Positions 5,283 to 25,544 of a DNA stretch of 64,000 nt are shown here, piece by piece. The notes under the pieces were generated by a model. That model was not told the origin of the DNA. It did no database searches and saw only the letters and a list, made by a program, of their open reading frames with translations. A program made the position numbers and the translations under genes. Origin of the DNA: Flavobacterium inviolabile (lineage in GTDB: Bacteria > Bacteroidota > Bacteroidia > Flavobacteriales > Flavobacteriaceae); assembly GCF_013389455.1 (NCBI RefSeq), contig NZ_CP058278.1, positions 1,302,001-1,366,000 of the forward strand, given 5' to 3'. The stretch's first letter is position 1, and every line of letters begins with the position of its first letter.

Positions 5283-5283
5283 G

Positions 5284-7029: not shown

Positions 7030-7113
7030 AAAGCGATAAGGATCGCGATGACGAAAAAAGAAATGCAAAGGAAGCGACGCCTTACGATCTGAAAAAATTA
7101 TAAATAACAATAT

Positions 7114-7553: not shown

Positions 7554-7964
7554 ATGAAAATAAATACAGATTTTTTAGGAATAGGTTGGAGCTTTCCGCC
7601 TGAGTTTAATAAAGCAGAAGGAAGCGTGACGATGACTACTGATGTTGAAGATATCAATAACAGTTTAATAATCCTTTTGTCTACGCGACCAGGAGAACGT
7701 GTCATGTTTCCAAACTATGGCTGTGATTTACAGGAAATGCTTTTTAAGCCCCTGGAACTAACACTAATCACACAAATGAAAGGTATTATTGAACGCGCCA
7801 TCTTGTACCACGAACCCCGGATCAATATTATCAGTATTGAAATTGATACTACAGAAGAACTGGAAGGACAGGTGTTGATACATATCGATTATGAAGTAAG
7901 AAATACCAATACGAGAAGCAATGTTGTTTTCCCTTTCTATAAAGGAGAAGCCACAGCAATCTAA
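7554..7964 (+). CDS. gp25-like baseplate wedge protein (Afp9-like)
   Basis: A 136-residue protein of the gp25/GPW family that starts sheath assembly at the baseplate and mimics the sheath 'handshake' domain. The family signature is visible in the middle: DINNSLIILLSTRPGERVMF followed by PNYGCDLQEMLF (the RPGER.M.P.YG core). The order PAAR then gp25 is the reverse of Afp (afp9, afp10). The 149-nt gap before it and the 91-nt gap after it hold no convincing ORF. Confidence 0.92.
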   Translation: MKINTDFLGIGWSFPPEFNKAEGSVTMTTDVEDINNSLIILLSTRPGERVMFPNYGCDLQEMLFKPLELTLITQMKGIIERAILYHEPRINIISIEIDTTEELEGQVLIHIDYEVRNTNTRSNVVFPFYKGEATAI

Positions 7965-8055
7965 ACGACTTGTAATTACTGTAACCCGATTCGATTTTGC
8001 CAGAATAGTTTACATCAAGTATTGCAGCTGACCATAGAAAATTAAATATAAACAA

Positions 8056-11000: not shown

Positions 11001-11223
11001 GGCTTTCGGAGATTCTGACGTAGTTTCTTTTAATATGAAACTCAATGTAAATCAGTTGATTAATTATTTGGAGCAACTTTATTATGTTGACTATATCGAC
11101 AGTTTACAGGTAATGATTAATGGTGAAATACAGACGAAATATTTAATCGAAGTAGATCCGAAATCCATATTAGTATCCGCAAAACAACATGCTGTGACTA
11201 TTGCAAAACAGGTATGTATTTAA
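8056..11223 (+). CDS. Baseplate J-like wedge protein (Afp11-like)
   Basis: A large 1055-residue baseplate component. The C-terminal 250 residues carry the baseplate-J type signature (TDAAFYRRVSERLRHKNRAI followed by TQWDYEQLVLQEFPDVF, about residues 842-885), which builds the wedge ring around the hub. The N-terminal 480 residues start MKKIDTFSHYRDGKSQMQRF and match nothing I can name beyond Bacteroidetes eCIS relatives. Residues about 597-653 hold three imperfect 19-residue repeats (NILVKNVKALN, NILAKNVKSLN, SILANSVKSAK). The next baseplate gene starts 30 nt downstream. Confidence 0.88.
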   Translation: MKKIDTFSHYRDGKSQMQRFLTELDPSNLELHDFDLFDWLLFANNFANHVNYFDKNDATTPNGSWEGFFLGADDYSIPRRESVAYKSLKKEVTELVAQFEKDGSLTPHLTLFICFIKLMDFSKKALNNLTQRHLDFYYNEILQIEKQDAKSDKVYVIFELAKKAIQERVPEGTLLDAKKDATGKKRVFKTEKELIASQAKVVGLKSFLNDKTKKELKIARAVNTLDGIAEKLTETSNYWWPFGYNSDESKPEKSDFKELENAKLGFSIASSLLSLKEGERTVTVTISFRNNGTSRLAALKPNEIENNIKLFYSGEKEWVSGSAIKCLNNDAKSLQLSFTLTKNFPAVVNYNKEVLGGTFLTNFAIARFMIEGNKYYELYEALAEKEIQNVDIAVDVKGVKSILIENDSSTLNPEKDYFPFTGQPVTGSNFYIKYPEMFAKKWDKASITINWKNTPTSIKDLYEGYTIKPNVVVSKNTFSAAKMKSSVVVQDDHFKANASLLEKEGWAIKATDIQLYQKTETGYQTYFSIKNASPVAGTSESIRLTLKQSALQDVYPKLYTLALTSGETNILIPNEPYIPVTENVELNYSASESAYTGRNILVKNVKALNTKSAFANQNILAKNVKSLNIESISPSRSILANSVKSAKNKEVTLFYEDAFGQVEKEMSANSIVPIHEAGGELFICLDANPSETVSLLIQALEGSENTLADTFENNENIEWDILSKNTWISLRNNILTNETKRFLESGILKFKIPKDIDINTTLFEKKGIWIRAKTKTSYDAVCKIQGIYTQAVLATFQNQDNDLTHLDHGLEAGTIAKLITRVPQIKSVSQPYNSFDGKYKETDAAFYRRVSERLRHKNRAITQWDYEQLVLQEFPDVFMVKCLNHTSEKSFMAPGHVTLVVIPNTKNKNAFDIYQPRISRASLNKIQNYVNGLNSMHVKTHVINPNYQEATVEIEAKFFNEYDEAFYSKQLDEDIKKFISPWAFGDSDVVSFNMKLNVNQLINYLEQLYYVDYIDSLQVMINGEIQTKYLIEVDPKSILVSAKQHAVTIAKQVCI
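9844..10014 (+). repeat. Three tandem 57-bp repeats inside the baseplate J-like gene
   Basis: The sequence attctggyaaa-agtgtaaaa recurs with a period of exactly 57 bp at 9847, 9904 and 9961, encoding three 19-residue units centred on NILxKNVKxLN. The period is a multiple of three, so copy number can change without a frameshift. Confidence 0.8.
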
Positions 11224-11253
11224 ACAAAACAAATAGATAAAAAACAGATAATT

Positions 11254-14040
11254 ATGTCAGAAAATAGTCATATTAGTATACCTAAAAAAGTTGAAACGGA
11301 AGACCAGTTAGATTTTCAGTTTCTACGAAAGACAGGTATTAAATACATAGAAGAACTGGGTAGTAAACTCTGGACAGATTATAATTCTCATGATCCTGGG
11401 ATCACTACTTTGGAAGTGTTAAGTTATGCCATTACCGATCTGGGCATGCGAATGAACCTTAATACGGAAGATATTTTATCTTCTGAAGATCCGGATAAAA
11501 ATATTGAAAACCAATTTATTAAAGCTACCGAAATTCTGCCGTCAAGACCATTGAATGAGCTGGATTACCGAAAATTATTTATCGATGTTGGTTTAAAATC
11601 GGGCAGTAGCAGAGCTGTAAAAAACTGCTGGTGGCGTCCTAGAGTAGAATTGGTTTATGCCGATTGTAAGTCAACAAAACTGGCGTTAAACCCGAACGAT
11701 TTAGGCGTAACTGAAACAAAAAGCTTCGACGTAAAAGGACTTTATGATCTTTATGTAGAATATGGTGATGACCTTGAAGGAGAAGACGCAACCGATGTTT
11801 GCGACAGATCGAACACCAGAATAAAAATTCTGGAACGTTATCATGCAAACAGAAGCCTTTGTGAGGATTTAGTAGACATCAGGGAAGTTGAAACGCAAAG
11901 TATTGCGGTTTGTGCCCGGATTGGTGTTACAAACAAAGCCGACGAAGAACTCGTACACGCAAAAGTGTTGCGAAGCATTAACAATTACCTGTCGCCGGAA
12001 GTGCACTTCTATTCCTTAAAGCAAATGCTGGACAAAGGATATACGACCGATCAGATTTTTGACGGACCGCTTTTGGATAATGGTTTTATCGATACGGAAG
12101 AACTTAAAAACAGTCAGCTAAGAAAAGAAGTACGGCTGTCCGATATTATCAGTGAGATTATGAAGGTTGAAGGCGTTCAGGAAATTAAAGAAATTTCTAT
12201 CGCCGGATGTGACGGTACTTTACAACAAAGTGATGAATGGGTGATCTGTATCGGAGAAGGAAAAAAACCGGTATTGTGTGATCTAAGTTCTTTTAGCTAT
12301 TCCAAAGGATCGCTACCGTTAAATATCAATCGTAAAAAAGTAGCCGAATACCAGAAAACATTCCGTGAGGAGCAGGAAGCACTTAGAGTAGATGCGCGGT
12401 TAAACAAAACATTGGAAATCCCTACAGGAACGGCCTATGACTTGGGAAATTATGCCTCTATTTTAAATGAATTCCCGGATACCTATGGTGTGGGAACATC
12501 CGGAATTATTGGAAATCCGGGTGTGGAAAGAGAAGCGCTTGCCAAGCAGTTACAAGGGTATTTGCTGTTTTTCGATAAAGTACTGGCCAGTTATTTCAAA
12601 CATCTTGAAAAAGTAAAAGAAATATTGAGTGTTAACGGTACGCTGAAAAGAACCTATTTTACACAGGCGCTTAAAGGAATCAATGGTTTTGAAAATCTGG
12701 TAAAGAATTATGTAACTAACGACGACGATAAGCTTACCGATGCTTTATATGAAGAACTGGACAATAGTGTAGAACGAAGAAACAAGATTCTGGATCACCT
12801 GACTGCCCGGTTTGCAGAAACATTCAGCGATTATACCTTCCTGATGAAAACACTTTACGGAGTGTCTACCGATGAAATTGTATTGCGAAACAAAGAAGTT
12901 TTCCTGAGCGAGTACAGCACATTGAGTACCGATAGAGGATTGGGGCATAATTATACCCTGACTGCCGATACCGATTTGTGGAATACCAGTAACGTTTCCG
13001 GAGTACAAAAAAGAATTGCGCGATTGTTGGGAATGAAAGATTACAAGCACCGAAATGTGTCCAATTCGCCTGTTCAGATTATCGAAATCACAGAAAGCGG
13101 AGCCCCGGCCTTTAAATGGCGTATTAAGGATGCCGACAATGCCATTATTCTGAGTGGTGTTAAAAGCTTCAAGATTGAGTATGGCGCTACACAAACGTTA
13201 AACGAAGCCGTTTATCAGGTCATTCAGATTGATCAGGAAGATCTTGAAAACAAGCTGGAAACCACTTTTAATGGAAACGAACGTATTGGAAACATCATCA
13301 TCCGTAAATCGGAGATGGAAAATTTCTATCTGGAAATTGTAGACGATTCCGAAGCGGCTGTAGTTATCGCATCCCATAAGAAAACAAATCCGTATACGTC
13401 ACAGGATGCCTTAAAAGAGGGAATCCTTAATCTGGTAGATTATTTCAAATATCGCTTCACCGAAGAAGGGCTTTTCCTGGTAGAACACATGTTGTTAAAA
13501 CCATCGGTTAAAAATTATGATTTGATGGGCGGTATCGGTTGTATGGCTATTGAAGACACTTTTATCGTGATGTATGATGGCGATGGCGGCTCTGGAGCTG
13601 CCGATCCGGATGCCTTTATGACTACCTGCGAAGATGGTTGTGAGAACGATATTTTTGATCCGTATTCCTACCGTGTCAGCGTAGTGCTTTCCGGATATGC
13701 ATATCGTTTTTCAGATTATGATTTCAGACGTTATGCCGAAACGGTTATCCGACAAGAACTTCCGGCACACGTTTTAGCAAAAATTTGTTGGGTTGGTGAC
13801 AGACAGGGTGAGGTCGAAACCGCGATGGGTGATCTGTCGGATTTCGAAAGAACCTATAAAAAATTCCTTCTCGATAAAGCACGAAATAATATTAGCAGTT
13901 TGGGAAGCAGTACCAAAGCGTTACTGGATGCACTAACCAACTTAAATAATATCTATAAGCCGGGAAGGCTGTTAGACTGTGCCGTGGACGATAACGACAG
14001 TCTGGATGGAAAAATCATACTAGGACAATCAAACATATAA
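11254..14040 (+). CDS. Afp12-like baseplate wedge protein
   Basis: A 928-residue protein in the position of afp12, directly after the J-like gene. It starts MSENSHISIPKKVETEDQLD and contains LWTDYNSHDPGITTLEVLSY near residues 40-60; the DPGI..LE..aY motif is typical of baseplate-J/gp6-like wedge proteins. The C-terminal part includes YRVSVVLSGYAYRFSDYDFR and a run before DRQGEVE that recur in Bacteroidetes eCIS Afp12 relatives. With Afp11 it would form the heterodimeric wedge to which fibres attach. It is separated by 12 nt from the next gene, in the same operon. Confidence 0.8.
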   Translation: MSENSHISIPKKVETEDQLDFQFLRKTGIKYIEELGSKLWTDYNSHDPGITTLEVLSYAITDLGMRMNLNTEDILSSEDPDKNIENQFIKATEILPSRPLNELDYRKLFIDVGLKSGSSRAVKNCWWRPRVELVYADCKSTKLALNPNDLGVTETKSFDVKGLYDLYVEYGDDLEGEDATDVCDRSNTRIKILERYHANRSLCEDLVDIREVETQSIAVCARIGVTNKADEELVHAKVLRSINNYLSPEVHFYSLKQMLDKGYTTDQIFDGPLLDNGFIDTEELKNSQLRKEVRLSDIISEIMKVEGVQEIKEISIAGCDGTLQQSDEWVICIGEGKKPVLCDLSSFSYSKGSLPLNINRKKVAEYQKTFREEQEALRVDARLNKTLEIPTGTAYDLGNYASILNEFPDTYGVGTSGIIGNPGVEREALAKQLQGYLLFFDKVLASYFKHLEKVKEILSVNGTLKRTYFTQALKGINGFENLVKNYVTNDDDKLTDALYEELDNSVERRNKILDHLTARFAETFSDYTFLMKTLYGVSTDEIVLRNKEVFLSEYSTLSTDRGLGHNYTLTADTDLWNTSNVSGVQKRIARLLGMKDYKHRNVSNSPVQIIEITESGAPAFKWRIKDADNAIILSGVKSFKIEYGATQTLNEAVYQVIQIDQEDLENKLETTFNGNERIGNIIIRKSEMENFYLEIVDDSEAAVVIASHKKTNPYTSQDALKEGILNLVDYFKYRFTEEGLFLVEHMLLKPSVKNYDLMGGIGCMAIEDTFIVMYDGDGGSGAADPDAFMTTCEDGCENDIFDPYSYRVSVVLSGYAYRFSDYDFRRYAETVIRQELPAHVLAKICWVGDRQGEVETAMGDLSDFERTYKKFLLDKARNNISSLGSSTKALLDALTNLNNIYKPGRLLDCAVDDNDSLDGKIILGQSNI

Positions 14041-14052
14041 AACAGAAAAAGA

Positions 14053-17000
14053 ATGAACACTAAATTAGATAATATCACGACCCAGTATAGAAAGTTCAAC
14101 GTAAATCAGGCGTTAACCGAAGGGCAATTGAATGAATTTATTGATTATTTTGAAGATCAGGATCGTTTATCAAGAACCAGGCTAAATGGTGTTGGAGTCG
14201 GTTGCGGTTTTGAAACCGGCTTTATGGCGAATACTGCGGCACGAATCGCAGTCGTAAACCCAGACCAGCAGCAGTATCAGCAGCAATTTCAATTTATTAC
14301 AATTTCGCAAGGTGTGGGTGTTACCACAGATGGAGACCTGATTACGTTGCGTAAAAATATTCCCGGATCTAAATCTAAAGAGGTTAAAATAGACGATGCC
14401 GAAACAAAATATGCATACTATAGAGCCTATTTGGATCCCTACAAATATCCGCATTTCTATAGCGGAAATACACAAATGCCGCTATTGGAATTGTTTACCC
14501 AGGCCGACTATGAGGATCTGATAGCAAAAGGAGCCATAGCCGATTCCTTTCGTCCTGTATCAGCGCTGCAACAGGAAGTGCGCAATAAAATCGTAATTCT
14601 ATATCTGGAAAGCTATTCTAATGAAGAATCACCTTGTCAGGATGTCGATTGCGACAATAATGGAGCAGAACAGGTGTCTGATCTTAAAGTGCTTTTGGCG
14701 AACAGAAGCGACATGGATTTCTATGCACTTAACAGTAATGGATATGACAGTATTTATCAACAGTACAATAACTACGAATTACTTTATGAACAGTTAAGAA
14801 ACGTTGAAGTTCCAAGGGTAATTCTGGATAGAAATGTGACAACGGAATTGGCGTTACGTACAAAATTCCAGAATGCCATTCAGAGTGGTACACTGATTAC
14901 CGATTTGGATTTTAGTTTTAATCTCATTGCGGATATGTTTGATATTACCATGGACTTTGGTGGATTAAACCTGAGAGATAAACTGGATCAGGCATTAAAT
15001 ACGGCTTCATACGATTATCAGTATCGCTATGACCTGTTAAAAGATTTAGTGGATACATACAACGAGATCAAAGGATTGGTATTGCACCTTAAATCCGAAT
15101 GTTGTCCGGATATTAACGCGTTTCAAAAGCACCTTTTGTTAGGACCTCTTGGCGCTCCGCTAAATCAGGGAGATCATACGTCATACCGTCATGATTTTTA
15201 TAGTGCGCCAATCAATACCCATGAAGATGAAAACAAAGAAAAATTGATTTCATTGGCGAACCGTTTTACGCTAAAACTTAAAAAATTCCAATCGTTTAAA
15301 GGGCCGATCGTTATCACACCGTCTAACATAGGTGTTGCGCTAAGTGAAAAAGCCATTCCGTTTTATTATAATGTAGATCTGGATCTGTTAGAAAAATGGA
15401 ATTTCGAAAAAACGAAAAATTATAAGGAAACCTATAACTTAAGTTACCATAAAGCCAATCTGGCAACCGACGATTTTATTCGGAATCCGTTGCTGTACAA
15501 TATGGACCACAACGATTTTTATAAAATTGAAGGCTTTGTCGGGATGCCGTATACCATTGCAATGCAAAATATTAATGCCCTTAGGGATAGATATGGATTG
15601 GCATTTAAAGTTTCCGGATTATCCCTGGAGAAAAGTACCTCCCGAGCGCTTAGCGGAACCATTACAACGGCTACTGCTGCTACAGCTACTGTTGCTACTG
15701 CCGCTGCTGCCGCTGCGGGTATTGCTGCCGTAGTTACACCGGGCGACGTAACGGCTGTACCAGAAACACCTGTTTTGCCAGTGGGACCAGAGTTGACAAC
15801 CATATCAATCAAAGATCTGAGAGCACAATTAGTGGCTATTTCCAGTGATATTAGTAATCAGGTTAATGCACAGCAAACCTTGCGAACAATATCCGGCTTG
15901 GATAATCAATTGAAATTATTAAATACGATCGATTTTAAAGCGATTGCTGATTCGGGGATTTCCATTGTAACACAAACGGCCAAAGAAGAAAAGGTAGACA
16001 CCGAATTTTTAGGCGATTTCCTTGACCTGAAATCAGGATTGGAGCATGATGGCGGTGTACCGGTTGGCGGGACTTTGTATCTGATTTACAGATCGGAAGA
16101 ACACAATACCGTTTTAGCCGATTTTGCATTGCCTTACCTGTGTTGTTCCAAAAAAGATCCGGTATTTATGGCATTGCCTACGGCTAAATTATGTCAGAAT
16201 GATGCGAAGATTCCGTTTACGATTATTCCTTTGGATGGCGACATCAAAGCGAATATTGCAGGTCGGGAAGTGAAAGTCGTTAGTAAAACTGCAGGTCAGA
16301 ATTTCTTCGATCCGGGCCTTGTGGCAGCGGCCGATTTAGGTAAAACAATCACCTTTACCGTTAACGACGATCCTGTGGATGCAAAAATGATCGTGCATGC
16401 ACTGCCAAATGTAACGGTAACCGCTTCTGAACCGATTCACGGTGAAGTTCCGGATCTTCCGGATGCAGAGGTAACATTTACAGTTACCGGAGCGCTTGCA
16501 AATCTGACCTATATGATGGATTTTGGCGATGGTAAAAAAGCTTCGGGTACAGTGCCATTAGATGGTAAAATCAAGAATACGTACAAGCTTGTTGCAGGTC
16601 AGGAAGATACTTTCAGACCAACGATTACAATTTCGAACACGAACAGTTGTTCTAAAAAATATGATCTTAAACCGATTGTAATAACAGGACAAACAACCGT
16701 GAAATGTTTATCCGGTCTGGAAGTCACGATTCAGTATCACGATACCAAAGGACCTTGTCCGGGTGGACACGCTTGTAACTCGGCCCGATTCAAGTTATTG
16801 GCAAATTCGATACCACTTGGCAATGCCACTAATGGTAGTAACATTGTGAACTTAAATAATGGTAGTGCAGCACTTCAGCCGGGACAGGCTTATGGCGATG
16901 GAGAAACTTCCGGAAGATCGCGTAAGTGGACCTATAGCATTTCGGCAACAGAGGCACAGGCCATTGTTGCGGCAAACCAGCCTAACGACGGATTCATTTC

Positions 17001-17145
17001 GTTCTCATTGGTTTGTGCAGACAGTTCTTGTCACAGCGGTGTAGCATGGACTACATTAAAATTAGATGGTGCGGTAATTTATAATGGTTGTCCGAAAAAT
17101 AACTTCTTGACTATTAACCCTTGTACAGGAGAAATAAAGAAATAA
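14053..17145 (+). CDS. Large eCIS structural protein with PKD/Ig-like part, paralogue 1
   Basis: A 1030-residue protein of unknown exact role. Its N-terminal half is paralogous to that of 17558-20803: both have N-I-[TA]-TQYRKF, FFEDQDRLSR or YFEDQDRLSR, G-V-G-[VI]-x-CG and QGV[GA][VI]TTDGDL. Around residues 536-560 is an Ala/Thr/Val low-complexity hinge. Residues about 810-880 look like a PKD/Ig-like fold (MMDFGDGKKASGTVPLDGK). The C-terminal 140 residues are Cys-rich (CPGGHACNSARF, CADSSCHSG). There is no signal peptide. Its place at the end of the baseplate operon suggests a peripheral baseplate, fibre-anchor or cap component; that is inference. Confidence 0.7.
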   Translation: MNTKLDNITTQYRKFNVNQALTEGQLNEFIDYFEDQDRLSRTRLNGVGVGCGFETGFMANTAARIAVVNPDQQQYQQQFQFITISQGVGVTTDGDLITLRKNIPGSKSKEVKIDDAETKYAYYRAYLDPYKYPHFYSGNTQMPLLELFTQADYEDLIAKGAIADSFRPVSALQQEVRNKIVILYLESYSNEESPCQDVDCDNNGAEQVSDLKVLLANRSDMDFYALNSNGYDSIYQQYNNYELLYEQLRNVEVPRVILDRNVTTELALRTKFQNAIQSGTLITDLDFSFNLIADMFDITMDFGGLNLRDKLDQALNTASYDYQYRYDLLKDLVDTYNEIKGLVLHLKSECCPDINAFQKHLLLGPLGAPLNQGDHTSYRHDFYSAPINTHEDENKEKLISLANRFTLKLKKFQSFKGPIVITPSNIGVALSEKAIPFYYNVDLDLLEKWNFEKTKNYKETYNLSYHKANLATDDFIRNPLLYNMDHNDFYKIEGFVGMPYTIAMQNINALRDRYGLAFKVSGLSLEKSTSRALSGTITTATAATATVATAAAAAAGIAAVVTPGDVTAVPETPVLPVGPELTTISIKDLRAQLVAISSDISNQVNAQQTLRTISGLDNQLKLLNTIDFKAIADSGISIVTQTAKEEKVDTEFLGDFLDLKSGLEHDGGVPVGGTLYLIYRSEEHNTVLADFALPYLCCSKKDPVFMALPTAKLCQNDAKIPFTIIPLDGDIKANIAGREVKVVSKTAGQNFFDPGLVAAADLGKTITFTVNDDPVDAKMIVHALPNVTVTASEPIHGEVPDLPDAEVTFTVTGALANLTYMMDFGDGKKASGTVPLDGKIKNTYKLVAGQEDTFRPTITISNTNSCSKKYDLKPIVITGQTTVKCLSGLEVTIQYHDTKGPCPGGHACNSARFKLLANSIPLGNATNGSNIVNLNNGSAALQPGQAYGDGETSGRSRKWTYSISATEAQAIVAANQPNDGFISFSLVCADSSCHSGVAWTTLKLDGAVIYNGCPKNNFLTINPCTGEIKK

Positions 17146-17146
17146 T

Positions 17147-17413
17147 ATGAAACTGATCGAACGATATGAAAAAGACGGAACTGTCATTGAAGTTGATAGT
17201 TTGCTTACTACAAGCGATGCCGTTATCGATATAAAACAAATCATGGTAATGAATAATGAAGAGGTTCTTTTTTGTTTTGATACCGTAGAAGATAGGATTA
17301 TTATGACTGAATCTGCCGATGCTTTTATAGCAAAATACAAGGACTATTTGGGAACGTTGGAGAAAAAAACAGCTCATGTAGATACGGGGTGTGGATGCAA
17401 AAGTTGTAAGTAA
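17147..17413 (+). CDS. Small Cys-rich-tailed protein of unknown function
   Basis: An 88-residue protein whose ATG is one base after the previous stop, so it is probably translationally coupled to the 1030-residue gene. Most of it is acidic and mixed alpha/beta; it ends in GCGCKSCK, a cluster of three Cys that could bind metal or form disulfides. I recognise no family. It sits between the two large paralogues and is probably a partner of one of them. Confidence 0.6.
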   Translation: MKLIERYEKDGTVIEVDSLLTTSDAVIDIKQIMVMNNEEVLFCFDTVEDRIIMTESADAFIAKYKDYLGTLEKKTAHVDTGCGCKSCK

Positions 17414-17467
17414 TGACATCTTTAAAGGATTTATAAAACGCGTCATGCTTGAACACAATCAGGACAG

Positions 17468-17515
17468 ATACTGCGGGACTTGATACGGTAACGGAATGCA
17501 AAATAACCGCAGTAT
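17468..17515. other. Inverted repeat in gap between the two large paralogues
   Basis: The 144-nt gap (17414-17557) contains a perfect 9-bp inverted repeat, atactgcgg at 17468-17476 and ccgcagtat at 17507-17515. No T-run follows, so this is more likely an mRNA structure or binding site than a terminator. Confidence 0.35.
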
Positions 17516-17557
17516 GGCTTCCTGTGAAAAGCTGCTAAACCATTTAAATTATTAAAA

Positions 17558-20500
17558 ATGAATTACAATTATCAATTAAATAACATAGCAACCCAATACC
17601 GAAAATTTAGTAAAGGGCAAAGAGTAGAGGATTTGCAATTCAACGAGTTCCTGGATTTTTTTGAAGATCAGGACCGCTTGTCCCGGGTTATGCTGGAAGG
17701 CGTAGGGATTGTGTGTGGTTTAGAACCACAACCGATTTACGAAAATAACCTGCTTACCAAAATAAAGCTTTCGCAAGGTGTTGCAATCACTACAGATGGA
17801 GATTTGCTTACGTTAAACAAGAAAAGCAAAATCCAGGATTTAAGTGGCGACGCCTATATGGGCGAACTAAAAAACATAAACATATCCGATAAAGAATACA
17901 CACATTGGAGGGTTTATGACAATAGTAAAGCAATGTATCCGCCTTTTCATACCAATTTAGGAGTGCAGAACGTACAACTTTGGGAACTGGCAACAGCCGA
18001 AGAAGCTACAACAAATTTTCAGCCGTTGGCAACACTTGGCGATTTTGATGACAAATACTTACTGCTTTATCTTGAAAGTTATGAAAAAGAAGTAAAACCA
18101 TGTCGCGGTGTGGATTGTGATAATCACGGAATCCAGCAAATTCGAAACCTGAAAGTGTTGGTTACGACACATAGTAGTGCCGACCGGATTCTGGCTAAGG
18201 ATAACGTTTTTCCGGAACGTATGATCTCGGGTAACGTAACCACAGCCAGAAAATTAAAACGTGTTATTTTAACACCACAACTGGGAACACCGGAACAATT
18301 AAAACAGGCATATAAAAATATTGTAACGGAAAATGATTACGGTTGGATGTTTTCGAATATTGATTTTATTTCGGAAAAAATGAACATCCCGTTGATCAAT
18401 CGGGCCAACTTTGTGAGTACGCTAAACCAGCTTGCCAATCAGAGTAATAATTTTCAGTATGCCTATGATGTCCTTAAAGACTTAGTGGAAACGTTTGCCG
18501 AAATCGTCAAATTACTACCGGGTTCCTTTACGAAATCGCTGCCCGATGTAGCTTCTTTTCCAAAGCATGTCATACTTGGGAAATTGCTGCCAATAGCCGG
18601 ATACGATTATACCAGACATAACTTTTATAATTCGCCTGTTTTAGACAGCGAAAAAAAGACATTAAGGGTTAGAACATTAATCGAACGCTTTAATCAATTG
18701 ATCCTTGCGTTTAGAAATCCGACCAATATTGGTACCGGAGTTGTCATTACGCCGTCAATGAATAAAAGTTCGTTAGGAGACCGATCCATTCCGTTTTATT
18801 ATGAAACTTCGGAAGAATTTTTACGCCTTTGGAATTTTGATAAAACAAGTAACAGGGCTTTCGATACGAATTTAAATTATAATAAATCGAATCTTTCAAC
18901 AGCGCTTAACGTGCAAATGCCGCTCGATTACAACATCGATAAAATGCCTTATTATCTTATCGAAGGACATCAGGGAGGTGATTATCATGAAGTGATCGAT
19001 GCGATTCAGACAATAAAAAACGCGAAGCAGTTAGGCTTTGAAGTAATGTCGGTATCTCTGACACAACTACTTAATAATAAGGATTTCTATAAGGCTGATT
19101 TTGCCGATTATGTTGGGAAAAACCCGGCATTGGAACATAAACATGGAGTTCATAAAGGAGGTACTTTTGTCGTGGTTTACAAATCGGAAAGTGATCCTTA
19201 TGTAATTGCCGATTTTGCCCTGCCTTACATTTGTTGTACACCAAAAACACCTATTTCGTTAAGCCTTCCGTCTCAGACCGTTTGTAAAAATGGAAAACCG
19301 ATGGTTTTTACCGTAAATCCGCCAAATGGAGAAGTAAAAGCAGCTGCTGGCAATGTACTCCTTGCAGGTGTTACAAAGATCAACGGACAATATTTGTTTG
19401 ATCCGGACTTGGTTGAACCGGCATTACTGAATCAGGAGATCAGTTTTACAGTAAACGGAAAACCAACCAATTGTAAGGTCAGAGTTTTACCAATACCTGC
19501 CGTAACAATCAATGCGGTCAAATTTGATTATCCTGAAGGCGATTCAACGCAAACAGTTGTGACGTTTAAGGTTTCGAATCAGAATGGAGTGGAATATGAT
19601 TATAAATGGGATTTCCTGGGTAATGGAAGCTATGTTTCTGTTAAACCGGATGATGCGGGTAATGTTAAAAATATATACTTTGCTAAAGGTAAAGTTAGAA
19701 GAAACCCGGTAAATGTCCTGGTTACAGCAGGAAACGGCTGTTCTCAGATGGTAACGCTTACCAATTGGTATGTGTCGCAACCAACAAATAATAATACTCC
19801 TCCAACGGTGGCGCTTAGTGCTATACCTACGGACTTGTATGTACCGGGGAGGCACCAGTCAAAAATTTACAGAGAAGTAACGCCTGGAACAGGTACAATT
19901 CCGGATTCCGGTTATATATGGTCGTGCGATGATCCTAATGTGATTATCTCAGGTACCAGCAATCCGGTTGGAGCAACTTTCCCTTATGCCGGAGTCTTTA
20001 CGGTGAAGTTAACGGTTAAAGATTCTAATAATTTAGAAGGGTCCGCTACCCTTGTGTTTGATGTGAAAACGCAGGTGAGTATTACAAATTTGATTGTAAC
20101 GCCATCGGAACCAAGTACCAATGATATTGTGAATGTTAGGGCTGTGACGAATAATCCAAGCAATATTCAGGACTTACAATATGAGTGGTACCTGGATGGT
20201 GAGCGGGTCAATACTACATCTGTAAATGAGATGGATTTCGGGCCGCTTGATGCCGGGGAAAGAAAGATTGATGTGCTTTTGAGCAGCAGTGCGGGTTGGT
20301 ATCATTCAACGGAAGTGCATACCGTTATAGTGCAGGTTCAGGAGCCGGTATCACCGCGGGGAGGGACTTCCTTCTTGCCGGGAACCAAGATAACCATGGA
20401 AAATGGAAGCTTGAAAAATATTGAAGAAATCAAAAAAGGGGATCGGTTAAAATCCTATAAGGGCTCCGTGACGGTTATCAGATCTGTTAATTATAAGGCG

Positions 20501-20803
20501 GAGGTTAATCTGTACCGATTGAATGAGGAGGTACACTTTATAACGGGGGCACATCCGGTACGAACAACATCTGGCTGGCGATCGTATGAACCGGAAAAGA
20601 CCAGAGCGATTCTGCCGTCATTTCAGATTGGCCAGCTGAGTGGAGACATTATGCTTATGAAAGCTGGAGATCTAACGGAACCATTACAAACGGACGACTT
20701 TATAAGCGGGAATTTTACAGTGTATAATCTGGAAGTAAACGGAACTTTGGATTATTTTGCTAATGGCTATTCTGTACATAGTGAAATAATGCCACAGGCA
20801 TAG
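17558..20803 (+). CDS. Large eCIS structural protein with Ig/PKD-like repeats and C-terminal Hint-like domain, paralogue 2
   Basis: A 1081-residue paralogue of 14053-17145. Residues 1-560 share the TQYRKF / FFEDQDRLSR / TTDGDLLTL framework. Residues about 640-930 hold three Ig/PKD-like segments (YDYKWDFLGNGSY, YIWSCDDPNVI, LQYEWYLDGERV). Residues about 938-1075 resemble a Hint (hedgehog/intein) domain: SFLPGTKITMENGSLKNIEE, then FITGAHPVRTTSGW and finally VYNLEVNG...YFANGYSVHS. The usual first Cys is Ser938 and the usual final His-Asn is His-Ser, so cleavage chemistry may be changed or lost. It is the last gene before a strong terminator. Its role in the particle is unknown; a display or anchor function for fibres or cap is possible. 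Confidence 0.72.
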   Translation: MNYNYQLNNIATQYRKFSKGQRVEDLQFNEFLDFFEDQDRLSRVMLEGVGIVCGLEPQPIYENNLLTKIKLSQGVAITTDGDLLTLNKKSKIQDLSGDAYMGELKNINISDKEYTHWRVYDNSKAMYPPFHTNLGVQNVQLWELATAEEATTNFQPLATLGDFDDKYLLLYLESYEKEVKPCRGVDCDNHGIQQIRNLKVLVTTHSSADRILAKDNVFPERMISGNVTTARKLKRVILTPQLGTPEQLKQAYKNIVTENDYGWMFSNIDFISEKMNIPLINRANFVSTLNQLANQSNNFQYAYDVLKDLVETFAEIVKLLPGSFTKSLPDVASFPKHVILGKLLPIAGYDYTRHNFYNSPVLDSEKKTLRVRTLIERFNQLILAFRNPTNIGTGVVITPSMNKSSLGDRSIPFYYETSEEFLRLWNFDKTSNRAFDTNLNYNKSNLSTALNVQMPLDYNIDKMPYYLIEGHQGGDYHEVIDAIQTIKNAKQLGFEVMSVSLTQLLNNKDFYKADFADYVGKNPALEHKHGVHKGGTFVVVYKSESDPYVIADFALPYICCTPKTPISLSLPSQTVCKNGKPMVFTVNPPNGEVKAAAGNVLLAGVTKINGQYLFDPDLVEPALLNQEISFTVNGKPTNCKVRVLPIPAVTINAVKFDYPEGDSTQTVVTFKVSNQNGVEYDYKWDFLGNGSYVSVKPDDAGNVKNIYFAKGKVRRNPVNVLVTAGNGCSQMVTLTNWYVSQPTNNNTPPTVALSAIPTDLYVPGRHQSKIYREVTPGTGTIPDSGYIWSCDDPNVIISGTSNPVGATFPYAGVFTVKLTVKDSNNLEGSATLVFDVKTQVSITNLIVTPSEPSTNDIVNVRAVTNNPSNIQDLQYEWYLDGERVNTTSVNEMDFGPLDAGERKIDVLLSSSAGWYHSTEVHTVIVQVQEPVSPRGGTSFLPGTKITMENGSLKNIEEIKKGDRLKSYKGSVTVIRSVNYKAEVNLYRLNEEVHFITGAHPVRTTSGWRSYEPEKTRAILPSFQIGQLSGDIMLMKAGDLTEPLQTDDFISGNFTVYNLEVNGTLDYFANGYSVHSEIMPQA

Positions 20804-20869: not shown

Positions 20870-20913
20870 AAACGTCGGGCCTTCCGGCCCTACGTTTCTG
20901 TTTGTTTTTTTGA
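20870..20913 (+). terminator. Intrinsic terminator ending the eCIS structural operon
   Basis: A hairpin with arms aaacgt.gggcc (20870-20881) and ggccc.acgttt (20886-20897), one mismatch and a ttcc loop, followed by ctgtttgttttttt. It lies 66 nt after the stop of the Hint-domain gene. Confidence 0.85.
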
Positions 20914-20957
20914 GAATTTAAAGAAACCATGATCAAATGGTCAGGAAGCGATTGTTG

Positions 20958-21620
20958 TTATCGCCGGTTGTTTTTGCGTCTTGTACTAATGATGTTAAAC
21001 AGTTTGGCAACATCCTTAAGATGGATTTCAAAATCATTGTAATAGTCATTTAAGGAATGCAGCGTAATAATTCCGTTTTCCACATCGTGATTGATGATCC
21101 GTTTTACCAAAATACCTTTTTCCTTGTGGATAATCACAAAGTCCCACTTGTTATAATGCAGTTTGCTCATCCAGAAATCCTGTCTGATATTCCTGCATAA
21201 TAAAATGTCGCCTTCCAGGTAGCTCTCGTAGGATCCGTTATCCATACTGTCGCCTTTAACTTCGAAGCACATGTACTCGCCCCGGTGTTCTACGTCGTCA
21301 GTGAAGGGAATGGTAGGAAGGCTTTCCGTGTATTCTTCATCGGCAAAACCGTTAAGGTAACCGGCTTGTGCATATTGGTTTACAAGCGGCACATTCATGA
21401 CCTTTAATTCGGAAAAAATAACCGGAGATCCATTTTCATTAGTTGGTTTCTGTTTTTTAGCTAACAGGCTTTTCATGAAAAAGGCAGTCGTTTCAGGAAT
21501 TTTTCGTTCGCCTTTTTCCCAATACTGTATCGCTCTAATTCCAACTCCAATAGATTTTGACAGCTCAGATTGCTTCATGTTTAAGTTTTTTCGAATTTCT
21601 TTAAACTCTAAATAATTCAT
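20958..21620 (-). CDS. S24-family (LexA/CI-like) transcriptional repressor
   Basis: A 220-residue regulator. Residues 1-60 are an HTH_XRE DNA-binding domain (MKQSELSKSIGVGIRAIQYW). Residues about 78-215 are a LexA/CI-type S24 peptidase domain. The cleavage-site pair Ala86-Gly87 (YAQAGYLNG), the catalytic Ser125 (KGDSM) and Lys173 (ILVKRI) are all present, so RecA-assisted self-cleavage is chemically possible. The frame stays open to 21659, but MNYLEFKEIRKNL at 21620 is a typical N-terminus for this family. It is transcribed away from the lysis-like genes across a 361-nt gap, the arrangement of a prophage repressor. Target genes are inferred. Confidence 0.9.
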   Translation of the reverse strand: MNYLEFKEIRKNLNMKQSELSKSIGVGIRAIQYWEKGERKIPETTAFFMKSLLAKKQKPTNENGSPVIFSELKVMNVPLVNQYAQAGYLNGFADEEYTESLPTIPFTDDVEHRGEYMCFEVKGDSMDNGSYESYLEGDILLCRNIRQDFWMSKLHYNKWDFVIIHKEKGILVKRIINHDVENGIITLHSLNDYYNDFEIHLKDVAKLFNIISTRRKNNRR

Positions 21621-21981
21621 AATGAGATTTTTATAAATATTAAACAAAATAAAACGCAAATTGTACTCTTTTTTGTTTTGTAAACACGAACATAATTCGC
21701 ATATTTGTCGTGTAGCGTATCGAGATTAATGCAAATATACGAAATATATGCAACATTTAACAGTGTTGCTAGTATTGGTATAATCAAGTGACGCTCTTAT
21801 ATTACAGTGTTTTATTTCCTTTTTGGAAACTGCAAAAATACAAAATAAAAATACGAACATAGTGCGGTATTGTGCGTTTTTTATTTTTTTTGCAGAACTA
21901 TTTGCGTAAAGAAAAGCTACAACAAATGCTGGATTTATTTTTTAATCAATTTTTAAAACAACCAATTTTTAAAACAAACCG
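21621..21981. promoter_or_regulatory. Divergent promoter/operator region of the S24 repressor and lysis-side genes
   Basis: There is no gene in these 361 nt. Possible sites are: an inverted pair cgcatatttg (21698-21707) and caaatatacg (21732-21741), nine of ten bases matching; a repeated acgaacata at 21686-21694 and 21853-21861; and acacga/tcgtgt arms around 21685-21714. The second arm of the first pair reads tatatttg on the minus strand (21732-21739), a match to the Bacteroidetes TAnnTTTG -7 box for the repressor gene. These are candidate operators for the S24 protein. Confidence 0.5.
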
Positions 21982-22152
21982 ATGAGAAGAAGTAAAGAAT
22001 TAATTGAAAAGCGAAAAGAATTTGTTACGAACTACGTAACGCATAACCAGAGCAAGCAGATGAAGGTGATTGTGACTGAATTGACAGAGATGCTGTTTCT
22101 GTCAGAACGTACCATATATAATATCCTTACTGATGATGAAAATGATTACTAG
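21982..22152 (+). CDS. Small putative HTH DNA-binding protein
   Basis: A 56-residue protein starting MRRSKELIEKRKEFVTNYVT. The second half (VTELTEMLFLSERTIYNILT, residues 31-50) has the spacing of a helix-turn-helix, with SERTIYNIL as a likely recognition helix. It is the first rightward gene after the S24 repressor and could be its antagonist or an activator of the genes that follow. No family assignment is certain. Its 3' end overlaps another small ORF. Confidence 0.6.
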   Translation: MRRSKELIEKRKEFVTNYVTHNQSKQMKVIVTELTEMLFLSERTIYNILTDDENDY

Positions 22153-22240
22153 GATTGTAAGCCTTGATAAAGGATGGAACCTGTTCTGGTTCTATCAGGA
22201 CAAAAACGAACCGGATTTTCCCGAGTTAGGTTGGGAATAA
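22142..22240 (+). CDS. Tiny overlapping ORF (32 residues), uncertain
   Basis: ATG at 22142 lies inside the last codons of the small HTH gene (11-nt overlap, different frame) and opens a 32-residue peptide, starting MITRIVSLDKGWNLFWFYQD and ending FPELGWE. The overlap and its aromatic-rich, non-random look suggest translational coupling. Length alone gives little statistical support. Confidence 0.35.
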   Translation: MITRIVSLDKGWNLFWFYQDKNEPDFPELGWE

Positions 22241-22586
22241 AGCCCGGAACTACGGTAAAAGACTATTTAAATGCAACTGTCAGTATAAAAGATTACCATG
22301 CCGTTATGCATCGGATATCGTAAACAGTTAAGAACTTTTCTAAAAAAAGAAACAACGCCACACATTAATATCTGGGAAACAGGCCCGTAAGCCAGTATTT
22401 AAAGAAACCTGATGCAATGACTATTGTATAGTGGCGTCTTCAGAGAATAAAAAATAAAGCAAAAAATGACAGGCTTTTTAAGCATTGACTTAAAGGGCAG
22501 GAGACCTTTTTGTCTTCATTCGGAAGCATTCCCTTTCAGATTAGCATCCAGATAAACCACTAACTACAAGTATAATACTAATAATT
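22241..22586 (+). other. Intergenic stretch before the lysis-like genes
   Basis: 346 nt without a convincing gene. A distant inverted pair acgccac (about 22349) and gtggcgt (about 22430) could form a large mRNA hairpin. A 29-codon ORF from 22467 looks like chance. I see no terminator. Confidence 0.3.
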
Positions 22587-22751
22587 ATGAAAAGAAAAAA
22601 GAAAGCAACAAAGAGAAAGAAAGGGGTATTTGATGAACCGGAAAAAGATATTGATGATCTTATTGATGATATCGCTTATCTGGATGAGAGTCAAAACATT
22701 AAAAAAAGCAAAAGCTTTTTAGACAATATGTACCTGATAAATAAAGAATAA
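22587..22751 (+). CDS. Small basic/acidic protein of unknown function
   Basis: A 54-residue protein. It has a very basic start (MKRKKKATKRKKGVF), an acidic middle (EKDIDDLIDDIAYLDE) and ends in YLINKE. Its stop overlaps the next ATG (TAATG), so it is translationally coupled to the holin-like gene. No family is recognised; the charge pattern resembles small phage proteins. Confidence 0.55.
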   Translation: MKRKKKATKRKKGVFDEPEKDIDDLIDDIAYLDESQNIKKSKSFLDNMYLINKE

Positions 22752-23122
22752 TGAATTTAGAAAACTTCAAGATCTTATTTATAGGAACGGCAGTCGCATT
22801 CTCAGGAGGACTGTTGAGGGTATTGATTTCGATTCAGAATAAAGAAAAAAAACAGCCTTGGGAACATATCGTAACCTTATTGATTGTGATAATCGTAGGC
22901 TTTACAATGAGTTATGTGATGCATAAAGCGAATGTCAATGACAAATGGTATTCCACCGGGATGCTTTTTGTCCTTGGCTATGGCTATGATAAATTCTTGA
23001 AAATGATCACAACAAATCTCCCAAGCTGGATTGACAAAGCGGTAAAAGCTTATATCGAAAAGACATACGGGATCAATACGGACAAGGCACCAAAAGAGAA
23101 AGAAGAGGAGGATGAAAAATAA
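22751..23122 (+). CDS. Holin-like small membrane protein
   Basis: A 123-residue protein with hydrophobic segments at about 7-27 (ILFIGTAVAFSGGLLRVLI) and 39-58 (HIVTLLIVIIVGFTMSYVM), a weaker one at about 67-80, and a charged tail ending KEKEEEDEK. Size, membrane segments, charged tail and position directly before an amidase fit a phage holin, which opens the inner membrane to let endolysin reach the wall. There is no sequence motif diagnostic of a holin family, so the function rests on context. Confidence 0.65.
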   Translation: MNLENFKILFIGTAVAFSGGLLRVLISIQNKEKKQPWEHIVTLLIVIIVGFTMSYVMHKANVNDKWYSTGMLFVLGYGYDKFLKMITTNLPSWIDKAVKAYIEKTYGINTDKAPKEKEEEDEK

Positions 23123-23140
23123 CTTAAAAAGGCAAAACAG

Positions 23141-23785
23141 ATGAAAACAATAAGTCATGATTTCCCTGAAAATCAATATTACAGGGAAATGACAAAAAAA
23201 AAAGGAATTGTGCTGCATCATACCGTCTCTGGCGACTCGGTCGCGGGCGATATCGAATGGTGGAAATCCACTGCGGAACGTGTTGCCACACCTATAATCA
23301 TCGCTAGAGATGGCGGGATACACCAGTTATATTCTTCTCAATATTGGGCACATCACTTGGGAATAAAGCAAGAACATTTTAAACTATTCGGTCTTCCGGC
23401 CTCAAATACCCAGCGAAATAAAGAATTTATAGGAGTGGAGCTTGACAGTTGGGGCGGATTGACCAGTAAAAATGCCCGGTATTATTCCTTTTCAGGCCAG
23501 GAAGTAAAGAAAGAAAACGTGGTGTATTATGAAAAAGGATTTCGGGGCTATCAGTATTTTGAGAAATACACGCCGGCGCAGCTCGACTCTTTAAAGGAAC
23601 TTCTGGAATATTGGGGCAAACGATATGAAATCCCGCTGGACTATAAAGGCGATGTTATGTTTGAATGTAACAAAAGAGCATTGAGCGGCGAAAGCGGAAT
23701 ATGGGGACATGTTTCTTTCAGGCCGGACAAGTCTGATGTGCATCCTCAGCAAGAACTCATCGCGATTCTGAAATCGTTAGCGTAA
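23141..23785 (+). CDS. N-acetylmuramoyl-L-alanine amidase (amidase_2, endolysin-like)
   Basis: A 214-residue zinc amidase that would cut the bond between MurNAc and L-Ala of peptidoglycan. Zinc-site signatures are present: GIVLHHTVSGDS (His26/His27) and WGHVSFRPDKSDVHPQ (His190, Lys197, Asp199, His201), with the central segment YWAHHLG. No signal peptide is visible, so export would need a holin, as for phage endolysins. It lies 18 nt after the holin-like gene and 25 nt before the coiled-coil membrane protein gene, and all are probably one operon. The alternative of a housekeeping amidase is unlikely given the neighbours. Confidence 0.9.
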   Translation: MKTISHDFPENQYYREMTKKKGIVLHHTVSGDSVAGDIEWWKSTAERVATPIIIARDGGIHQLYSSQYWAHHLGIKQEHFKLFGLPASNTQRNKEFIGVELDSWGGLTSKNARYYSFSGQEVKKENVVYYEKGFRGYQYFEKYTPAQLDSLKELLEYWGKRYEIPLDYKGDVMFECNKRALSGESGIWGHVSFRPDKSDVHPQQELIAILKSLA

Positions 23786-23810
23786 GGAATGGATATAAAA
23801 AACAAGGAAA

Positions 23811-24158
23811 ATGAGAGATAAGGTGCTATGCTATGCTTTGGGTGTTCTGGTTGTTATAATCTTAGTACTGAACATTCGAATGTATTTTTTGAAAAAAGAA
23901 CTCAATGCCGTTCTCGATGAACAGATGGAGGAATTGGAACTGCTGAAGGAACAGCACTTAATGCGATTAGACAGCATAGCGTTTTTGAAAGAAAAGAAAA
24001 TCGCCGTGATAGCTGAAAAAGAAAAATCGCTTTATGATCAGGTTGCTAAGGCAAAAGAAAACAATATGCGTTATGAACAAATCAAAATTAACATTGGTAA
24101 TACTGATGATGCTGACAGCCTGGCACGCCAGCTCACAAACCGCTATTCCGAAAGATAG
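23811..24158 (+). CDS. Membrane-anchored coiled-coil protein (i-spanin-like candidate)
   Basis: A 115-residue protein with one N-terminal membrane segment (about 7-27, LGVLVVIILVLNIRMYFL) and then a long charged coiled coil (EQMEELELLKEQHL through KEKSLYDQVAKAKEN). This is the architecture of Rz-type inner-membrane spanins, which with a partner disrupt the outer membrane after endolysin action. The last 86 nt overlap the next gene in another frame, again like Rz/Rz1. No sequence family is recognised; the call is by architecture and position. Confidence 0.55.
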   Translation: MRDKVLCYALGVLVVIILVLNIRMYFLKKELNAVLDEQMEELELLKEQHLMRLDSIAFLKEKKIAVIAEKEKSLYDQVAKAKENNMRYEQIKINIGNTDDADSLARQLTNRYSER

Positions 24159-24468
24159 TGTCGTGATCTCGAAAGAAGTGGCCAGAAAAGTGCTGATTGA
24201 CCTGGCGGATTATGATCGGCTCAGGGAAAATAAAGTAGAAACGAATCTGGAGGACTGTATCGGAATCCAAAAAGAAAAAGACGTATTGATCAGCTATATG
24301 GCACAACAAAACAAGCTTTATGGAGAAACGCTGCTGCTGACTGAAAAACAGTTGAAAATCAGAGACGAACAACTCCGGCTGAATAAGGGCGGCAGCGGCA
24401 AAAGCCTGTTGTTTGGTGTGGCGGGTTTTGCTGTAGGCCTTGTGCTGGGCGGGCTGCTGATACAATAA
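24073..24468 (+). CDS. Exported coiled-coil protein with C-terminal membrane segment (lysis partner candidate)
   Basis: A 131-residue protein read in the +1 frame relative to the upstream gene and overlapping it by 86 nt. MNKSKLTLVILMMLTAWHAS is a signal peptide (cleavage likely near residue 20). The middle part is an alpha-helical charged region (PKDSVVISKEVARKVLIDL, then DRLRENKVE). The last 24 residues form a glycine-rich membrane segment (LLFGVAGFAVGLVLGGLLIQ). No lipobox Cys is present, so it is not a classical Rz1 lipoprotein. The start at 24073 is preferred over 24034 because it begins the signal peptide. It probably pairs with the preceding protein. Confidence 0.6.
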   Translation: MNKSKLTLVILMMLTAWHASSQTAIPKDSVVISKEVARKVLIDLADYDRLRENKVETNLEDCIGIQKEKDVLISYMAQQNKLYGETLLLTEKQLKIRDEQLRLNKGGSGKSLLFGVAGFAVGLVLGGLLIQ

Positions 24469-24484: not shown

Positions 24485-24660
24485 GAAGTATTGCAACTAC
24501 AGAATAGAATAGCCGAAAAGCTATAGCATGAAATAAAAATACTTGAAATTTGCATTGTTCAATAAGAAGAACAGCAGGAAAACCGAAAGGTAAGACTTAC
24601 TGCAACTACAGAATTCAAACACAAAATATACTTAAAATTCAAATCCAATATTTGAATTTT
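24485..24660. promoter_or_regulatory. Repeated tgcaactacagaat motif and perfect hairpin before the fibre array
   Basis: The 344-nt gap between lysis module and fibres has no gene. It contains ttgcaactacagaat twice or nearly so (24491-24505 and 24600-24614; the longer form is gacttactgcaactacagaat at 24594-24614). It also has a perfect 11-bp inverted repeat aaaattcaaat (24634-24644) and atttgaatttt (24650-24660). The same gacttactgcaactac element is found at 42464-42479 before the ATPase gene, so it may be a shared promoter or regulator site. Confidence 0.5.
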
Positions 24661-24812: not shown

Positions 24813-25544
24813 ATGAAAAATATAACGACGAGAGAGGAACTCAAAAAATATTTTGAAAGAGGAGACCGCCCTACTGAGAGCCAGTTTTCGGAACTGATTG
24901 ACGGATATGTTCATTTAAATGAACTTAATTTCGGACTCTCAATCAAGCCGGCCACAGAAATATTCAATAAGTATTATGACTTTTATAAAGCTGACGATGT
25001 TGCTAATTCCGGAGCAGGCCACATAATAATCGAATCGGAAGCAGGAAAGGATCCTCAGATTTTTAACGGGTATCATCATGTCTTAAGCCGGGAAGTGTTC
25101 TATAAAAAATTGCATATAGAATTACTTGGCGGAATTAAGATTGAAACACACCAGCCGAAAATCATAATAAAGCGCTACAAGCAGAAAAAAAGACTGCGTA
25201 GCGGCTTTAAGAAAAAGTCCGGATTTTATCGGGAAAAAATGACGGATGCAGAACTATGGCAAAGAAAATCAGAATACATTGTGAAAGAACGGGAAATGAT
25301 TCTTGACCTGGAACCCATCCACTATTTCAGACCGAATAAGGCGTATAAAAACTTTTTGCCATCAGGAAGCCTCAATAAATCCGGTTCTTTTAAGTACTCA
25401 AGACATGGAAAAGCTTTTGTACCGATTACCATGCAGGTGGAAATACTGATTAACGGTATTGCATACCGGTCGCAGCCCGTAGGATTAAAAATCATTTTAG
25501 GTTCTGCAGGCGATACCGATTCCATAAACTATCTTTTAGATTAA
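24813..25544 (+). CDS. Fibre-array protein with divergent N-terminal attachment module
   Basis: A 243-residue protein starting MKNITTREELKKYFERGDRP. The stretch KKYFERGDRPTESQFSELID has the same pattern as the WFxxGxxPTxxxF module of the fibre proteins downstream, though the FWHK part is YVHL here. The middle is basic (KRYKQKKRLRSGFKKKSG). The C-terminal 80 residues (FVPITMQVEILINGIAYRSQ) are beta-rich. It is the first gene of the fibre array and may be an adaptor or short fibre. An in-frame ATG at 24765 exists, but the later one begins the recognisable module. Function is inferred. Confidence 0.6.
   Translation: MKNITTREELKKYFERGDRPTESQFSELIDGYVHLNELNFGLSIKPATEIFNKYYDFYKADDVANSGAGHIIIESEAGKDPQIFNGYHHVLSREVFYKKLHIELLGGIKIETHQPKIIIKRYKQKKRLRSGFKKKSGFYREKMTDAELWQRKSEYIVKEREMILDLEPIHYFRPNKAYKNFLPSGSLNKSGSFKYSRHGKAFVPITMQVEILINGIAYRSQPVGLKIILGSAGDTDSINYLLD

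Follow-up and report, generated by a model that had tools for sequence, protein, structure and literature searches.

How the particles of extracellular contractile injection systems (eCIS) are turned on and released is largely an open question, and a 2023 review, in the part of its text available, describes the control of eCIS clusters without a lysis cassette and conserved regulators as remaining unclear (PMC10598620). Here, the question is raised by an eCIS locus of Flavobacterium inviolabile, in a window of 64,000 nucleotides (nt; contig NZ_CP058278.1, positions 1,302,001 to 1,366,000, forward strand) from a genome of one contig and 3.9 Mb; all coordinates below are those of the window unless another stretch is named. 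Between the eCIS structural genes and the fibre genes lies a module (20958-24468) in which a divergent S24 repressor gene stands beside genes for a holin-like protein and an amidase. The simplest account of this arrangement is a domesticated CI/late-activator/lysis circuit, and we put a probability of about 0.6 on a temperate-phage control-and-release circuit that was domesticated and inherited in one Flavobacteriales eCIS clade. The genes of the module are as follows.

20958..21620, minus strand: S24 (CI/LexA-type) repressor, 220 amino acids (aa) from its ATG (Pfam PF00717 Peptidase_S24, 2e-10; PF01381 HTH_3, 3e-8)
21982..22152, plus strand: conserved 56-aa protein, candidate late activator, in 17/17 loci
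22587..22751, plus strand: conserved 54-aa open reading frame (ORF; orf54) with no assigned function, in 17/17 loci and absent from the gene list of the earlier, sequence-only note on this DNA
22751..23122, plus strand: holin-like protein, 123 aa (PF16083, Phage_holin_3_3, E 9.5e-4)
23141..23785, plus strand: Amidase_2 endolysin (PF01510, 4e-13), with no transmembrane (TM) segment by hydropathy
23811..24158, plus strand: membrane/coiled-coil protein with an inner-spanin-like layout (N-terminal TM segment by hydropathy)
24073..24468, plus strand: overlapping partner with a signal-peptide-like N-terminus (by eye) and a C-terminal TM segment (hydropathy)

The identity of the locus as an eCIS was confirmed by Pfam, which identifies sheath, tube, baseplate, spike, tape measure, terminator and AAA ATPase; the terminator (Pvc16_N) and a divergent tape measure (CIS_TMP) lie just upstream of the window, in stretch L082. 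The earlier note took the module to be built into this locus, and the comparison with other genomes bears this out, as the core of S24, 56-aa protein, orf54 and holin keeps the same order and the same eCIS position in 17/17 module loci (each locus counted once; G367, the same genome as G201/C. hagamense with identical box sites on C51 and C60, was not counted twice). Chance is excluded because the gene order is conserved in other genomes. The possibility that the module is missing from related eCIS loci and belongs to a separate prophage remnant was considered, and the remnant is ruled out by the conserved position.

Several searches define how far the module extends. Scanning a genome collection with the amidase alignment gave 20 loci, of which the four closest (L031-L034) have the module inside the eCIS, in the order g14053, g17558, S24 (reverse), 56-aa gene, orf54, holin and amidase in 4/4; the other 16/20 matched only the amidase among the window proteins, in the flanks available. 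Flavobacterium supellecticarium and three Chryseobacterium records are the named relatives with the same locus. CIS_tube was found in 22/199 relatives (own genome included), at 25 places, and only our genome, G040 and G178 among these 22 have S24 at the homologous distance from it. One locus was fetched from each of 12 CIS_tube genomes among the 21 besides our own: G040 and G178 have S24, the 56-aa gene, orf54 and the holin at the same eCIS place, and the 10/10 fetched loci of other eCIS types carry none of the four at E 1e-3. A holin search of 395 genomes of the order returned 15 matches, one of which (G453) was dropped as noise (23% identity, 8 stops), and all 14 credible matches lie inside this eCIS. 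The 17 loci, 12 of which come from one genus (g5, taken as Chryseobacterium because the C. hagamense genome G367 belongs to it), were found via module proteins and so test the place of the module, not its frequency among eCIS; for the frequency, the CIS_tube survey gives 3/22. The expectation that related eCIS share the module therefore holds in part: it occupies the same place wherever found, but is confined to one clade. Within that clade, the protein distances of S24 and of the holin across loci track those of gpJ and g11254 (Mantel r 0.93-0.95 over 16 or 15 loci, with G178 left out for its frameshifted holin and G352 without gpJ there), as expected for shared inheritance. The module is, on these comparisons, an inherited part of one Flavobacteriales eCIS clade.

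The gene that would control the module is the divergent S24 gene. The residues listed in the earlier note as intact, Ala86-Gly87, Ser125 and Lys173, are correctly numbered, and 17/17 orthologues keep the AQAG cleavage site, the serine of GDSM and the lysine of (V/I)KRI unchanged. With a helix-turn-helix (HTH) plus S24 domain, an Ala-Gly site and a Ser-Lys dyad, the protein is, as judged from its sequence, a repressor of the self-cleaving CI/LexA type. It is 41% identical to an S24 protein of a Leeuwenhoekiella phage; against PDB sequences, the best E value was 0.017, with HTH-level or chance matches only. A search for the S24 family in the same genome gave three matches: the module S24, a second protein that combines HTH and S24, and a frame of 151 aa resembling UmuD. 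None of the three reads as LexA-like. This observation favors a cue other than the SOS response, with S24 sensing a partner antirepressor and a subpopulation lysing independently of DNA damage, an account that is compatible with the other steps of the circuit proposed below. The cleavage site and the dyad, intact in every orthologue, speak against it. We hold this alternative only tentatively, as a real contender on the doubtful side of even.

The region between the S24 gene and the 56-aa gene contains the following elements.

21687..21699, no strand assigned: putative S24 operator CGAACATAATTCG; in four relatives CGAACATTGTTCG, inside a perfect 17-bp palindrome
21700..21707, plus strand: rightward -7-like element CATATTTG, abutting the operator; outside the window and F. 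supellecticarium, the other 15 loci have TATATTTG here
21732..21739, minus strand: leftward -7-like element facing S24, TATATTTG on that strand (sequence comparison)
21853..21866, no strand assigned: second, diverged operator-like site, also in F. supellecticarium; weak, as the 2-mismatch pattern expects 1.7 chance hits in the window

A palindrome-like block, CGAACANNNTTCG, sits 66-69 nt upstream of the S24 start in 17/17 loci and is followed directly, again in 17/17, by (T/C)ATATTTG; a facing CAAAT(A/G)TA element lies downstream of the block. The -7 consensus of Bacteroidota is TAnnTTTG. Such a conserved site in the region 21621-21981, where the earlier note expected S24 to bind, fits S24 binding, and the anatomy of the region would suit an S24 protein that represses the rightward promoter of the 56-aa/lysis operon and also controls its own gene. 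When the plus strands of the loci were scanned with the near-palindrome pattern at up to three mismatches, only the S24-upstream site matched in 15 loci, F. supellecticarium matched only at the second, diverged site and the window matched nowhere. Genome-wide, at up to two mismatches, the exact operator site occurs once each in G200, G201 and G202, and other matches number 5 (G000), 5 (G199), 0, 1 and 1 versus 2, 2, 0, 2 and 0 for the reversed pattern. Besides the diverged copy in the window and F. supellecticarium, the loci yielded no further S24-type site, so that control by S24 is probably limited to a single divergent promoter region. Direct repression of the structural genes by S24 was considered and rejected, as the plus-strand scan of the loci gave no second strong operator. 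As a separate observation, the two Flavobacterium loci with the differing operator also have a different S24 HTH sequence (GVGIRAIQ, elsewhere GVGTRAVQ), a possible case of co-variation.

The particle genes carry a motif different from the S24 operator, which we call the eCIS box: TACTGCAA(AG or CT)ACAG, then about 46 nt, then TTTG. The regions upstream of the terminator operon, compared in 7 loci, share a conserved TACTGCAAAGACAG plus TATGTTTG, and other operons are preceded by the same box or by TACTGCAACTACAG. Among exact box sites, TTTG stands at offset 60 or 61 in 48/53. The spaced box occurs at 39, 33, 9 and 13 sites (0, 1, 2 and 3 mismatches, respectively) in 873 kb of clade loci, at 0, 0, 1 and 10 sites in 542 kb of ten eCIS loci of other types, and at 0, 0, 0 and 4 sites in the reversed clade sequence used as a control. 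All sites with 0-1 mismatch (72/72) lie outside ORFs of at least 200 aa, and none of the 17 loci is without such a site. The fibre-like genes at 24813, 26297, 28519, 31753, 33650 and 36979 share an N-terminal tag (..F..G..PT..QF..), which is also found on orphan genes behind eCIS boxes in other genomes. Of the 72 sites with 0-1 mismatch, 70 have an ORF downstream within the stretch; judged from its first residues, this ORF is fibre-tagged in 44 cases, an effector-like giant in 11, the terminator in 7, the small gene that opens the tape-measure side in 6, the ATPase in 1 and another ORF in 1. The boxes in the window and the genes behind them are listed here.

24489..24502, plus strand: eCIS box with 1 mismatch, upstream of the fibre operon (pattern scan)
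24598..24611, plus strand: exact eCIS box, upstream of the fibre operon whose ORF starts at 24813 (pattern scan)
24813..25544, plus strand: first fibre-like gene after the boxes (named so in the earlier note, with the N-terminal tag and no family match)
42468..42481, plus strand: eCIS box with 1 mismatch, upstream of the AAA ATPase gene (pattern scan)
42569..43879, plus strand: AAA ATPase of the eCIS (PF00004, 9e-28)

The distribution of the box matches that of the module. Across the same 395 genomes, the spaced exact box was found in 14 (54 sites), exactly those with the holin, and the reversed pattern in none; the factor acting on the box is therefore probably encoded with the module. Unspaced exact boxes, counting the two forms together, are present in 12/12 module genomes and absent from 6 genomes without the module, 4 of which have only other middle letters and 2 nothing. 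Twelve unspaced exact boxes in module genomes lie on other contigs or far away, 9 of them correctly spaced and 3 not; of the 9, 8 precede fibre-tagged genes and 1 precedes an ATPase/nuclease locus of our own genome, and two distant cases on draft contigs (G201) could be linked to the eCIS locus. In an arrangement like the PrtR/PrtN control of pyocins (see below), a common promoter box before the particle operons and confined to genomes with the switch would be expected, and this is the pattern found. We consider it about an even bet that the whole phage decision circuit was domesticated for the eCIS and its late-promoter box then copied before fibre, effector and nuclease-immunity genes elsewhere. 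In the unlinked locus of our own genome (L198:1001-5976), about 0.77 Mb from the module, the genes behind the box encode another AAA ATPase, a protein of 973 aa whose end is of the WHH/colicin-DNase type, and a SUKH immunity-like protein.

Turning to release, the holin-like protein and the amidase described in the earlier note are both present. The former has weak holin-family matches (PF16083 below the cut-off; PHROG holin phrog_785, E 3.6e-3) and two TM segments by hydropathy; it is 73% identical to a homologue in a temperate-phage-like contig (L205, with tape measure and integrase matches), and a holin search of annotated phages gave no match. As in a lysis cassette, a peptidoglycan hydrolase is present, namely the PF01510 amidase here and a GH24 lysozyme (PF00959, 4e-30) in a relative. 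Amidase relatives occur at 27-50% in viral contigs and at 29-44% in phage records, and a search of 60 relatives gave only the gene itself and two weak matches (32 and 37%). In 12/17 loci, the amidase has no place beside the holin, and 11 of these 12 genomes carry a GH24 lysozyme. Searching the 17 whole genomes gave an amidase orthologue (78-100%) in 5, a GH24 lysozyme (82-100%) in 11, both in none and neither in 1; if the 16 genomes were independent, the two lysins would exclude each other in this way with a chance of 1 in 4368, a figure that is too strong given their relatedness. The lysozyme lies within the fetched locus in 10/11 cases; in the remaining genome, G332, it is on the holin contig, about 45 kb further along. 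The gene order in G377 is ATPase, then a protein with a lipobox (by eye) and a C-terminal TM segment, then a 146-aa phage lysozyme, the PF00959 match given above. In G251 (L181), the lysozyme has lost its first 64-65 residues and persists as a relic. The place of the lost front is taken by an ORF that looks HNH-like by eye, together with a 199-aa protein that matches a PHROG endolysin family (6e-50) and solved endolysins (4e-21) but nothing in Pfam.

Because the lysins have been swapped while one or another was kept in 16/17 genomes, this exchange is the best sequence evidence that lysis is the selected function. The amidase as a universal release enzyme was rejected, its orthologue being confined to 5/17 module genomes. 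The earlier note's "complete set of release genes" was too strong, as the amidase stands beside the holin in 5/17 loci. The overlapping membrane pair (23811-24158 and 24073-24468), which does exist as described, occurs in 2/17. A second copy of the GH24 lysozyme (84-88%) was also noted far from the eCIS copy in G261, G377, G477, G481 and G485. The same data bear on the idea that the module is a leftover prophage fragment in an ancestral eCIS, drifting or selfish and without a role in particle release. The phage relatives of its parts and the broken holin of G178 could be taken in its favor, but positional conservation in all 17 loci, a mean p-distance of 0.10-0.11 for S24 versus 0.20-0.21 for two baseplate-side proteins, the conserved operator and the keeping of amidase or GH24 lysozyme in 16/17 genomes despite exchange (partly as a relic in G251) make it very improbable.

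Positions, conservation, the box regulon and lysin exchange can be read directly from the DNA; the circuit that joins them is our proposal. A temperate-phage CI programme runs from repressor to late activator, structural genes and lysis, and the eCIS module would follow the same order of logic. S24 dimers would bind the palindrome upstream of the rightward -7 element and keep the operon of 56-aa protein, orf54, holin and lysin off, as the conserved anatomy suggests. A RecA-activating or other signal would then cause S24 self-cleavage, for which the site and the Ser-Lys dyad are intact, and thereby derepression. The 56-aa protein, as a candidate activator of the phage-late type, may switch on the box promoters. 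By sequence, these belong to the terminator/sheath and tape-measure operons, to effectors and fibres, to unlinked fibre or nuclease loci and, in this genome, to the ATPase. Finally, holin and lysin, possibly aided by membrane partners, would lyse the producer and free the particles; the lysin would be the amidase here and GH24 or a different endolysin in relatives.

Several observations weigh against this circuit. In the scan of clade loci, no spaced box was found before the lysis operon, and if the lysis genes and the activator had one promoter in common, lysis might well come too soon, so that its timing is unexplained. In both the window and F. supellecticarium, the operator is more than three mismatches away from the palindrome. 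The holin match falls under the Pfam cut-off (19.7 versus 28.4 bits), and in G178 (L136) the holin is frameshifted, with the S24 and 56-aa genes intact. G352 has neither the amidase nor GH24, although the search in that genome covered these two lysin families only and the contig stops short. Among the loci, orthologues of the overlapping pair were found in F. supellecticarium only, and the outer-membrane lipoprotein with a lipobox that marks a spanin is missing, as 24073-24468 shows no lipobox when read by eye; what several relatives encode instead is a protein that combines a lipobox with a C-terminal TM segment. The identification of the pair as spanins is unproven.

The weakest step is the identity of the activator. 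The description of the 56-aa protein as a small HTH protein did not hold up: it is highly conserved, but it matches no Pfam or PHROG family, HTH included, at E ≤ 1, and AlphaFold (with 24 close homologues) models it as one helix spanning residues 2-54 (pLDDT 92.8, pTM 0.60), for which Foldseek found no PDB match. An HTH fold was rejected on the same grounds, the PDB profile search having given weak matches only (CprK 0.018, AlpA 0.09, GerE 0.55). Furthermore, the eCIS box was not found at 0-2 mismatches in the two phage contigs that carry a homologue. These results lend themselves to a different division of labor, in which the reach of S24 ends at the neighboring lysis operon, the 56-aa protein has some other task, and control of the box regulon falls to another regulator (orf54, a specialised sigma factor or an activator encoded elsewhere). 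Set against this are the confinement of the box to exactly the 14 module genomes and the position of the phage homologues before terminase genes: one (61%, phage contig L202) follows a DnaB-like helicase and precedes terminase genes, and the other (57%, viral contig L203) directly precedes the terminase small subunit. We regard this division of labor as unlikely. The homologue in L203 (10001-10159) has two in-frame stops, pointing to a decayed gene or stop reassignment.

The domesticated circuit can be placed beside known systems, among which lysis cassettes next to an eCIS (Afp) and repressor/activator control of pyocins are already on record in the sources as far as available. In Pseudomonas pyocins, the self-cleavable, LexA-related PrtR holds back the activator PrtN and the lysis genes are co-controlled (PMC10598620). 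A repressor of self-cleaving type beside a contractile-particle locus is common to both and, in the proposed circuit, so would be an activator held back and co-controlled lysis, a functional resemblance only; here, by contrast, the locus encodes an eCIS, which has a tape measure, an ATPase and effectors, the protein proposed as activator has 56 aa, and there are a promoter box and unlinked fibre/nuclease loci that do not appear in the available part of the pyocin account (PMC10598620). The Serratia Afp has an upstream cassette of endopeptidase, holin and lysozyme with a predicted role in particle release, according to the portion of the source available (PMC12961389), and is likewise an eCIS with its own holin and lysin genes; its cassette lies upstream, whereas the present module is internal, beside an S24 gene and with an exchangeable lysin. 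Geller 2021 reports a GerE/LuxR eCIS regulator, again linked to the eCIS locus but of another protein family than S24, and the available main text contains no occurrence of holin or LexA (PMC8213781). No paper with both "contractile injection system" and Chryseobacterium came up in a literature search, nor, among mostly titles and abstract openings, did any description of this switch or box. From a temperate phage, the locus differs in that the eCIS-locus proteins scanned by profile gave no integration, replication, head or terminase family.

The remaining features of the locus are neighbors of the module.

1..20803, plus strand: eCIS structural genes (2 sheaths, 3 gp19-type tubes, CIS_tube, VgrG-like hub/spike, PAAR, gp25, gpJ and others; Pfam)

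The 1081-aa protein that directly precedes the module (17558-20803) has a Hint/Vint-like end (PF14623, E 1.4e-5, 25.4 bits, slightly under the cut-off) and PKD-like matches, and a profile search identified a nuclease-tailed protein at 44047-48171.

The control gene, operator, promoter box and release genes of this locus are each accessible to deletion or reporter work, and the box, as a sequence marker, leads to fibres and effectors that are not linked to the locus. If the circuit was domesticated and its box then copied elsewhere, as considered above, these bacteria would have a genome-wide particle regulon, and the box could be used to find unlinked cargo and fibres. The kept switch, lysis genes and box together suggest how such particles are activated and released.

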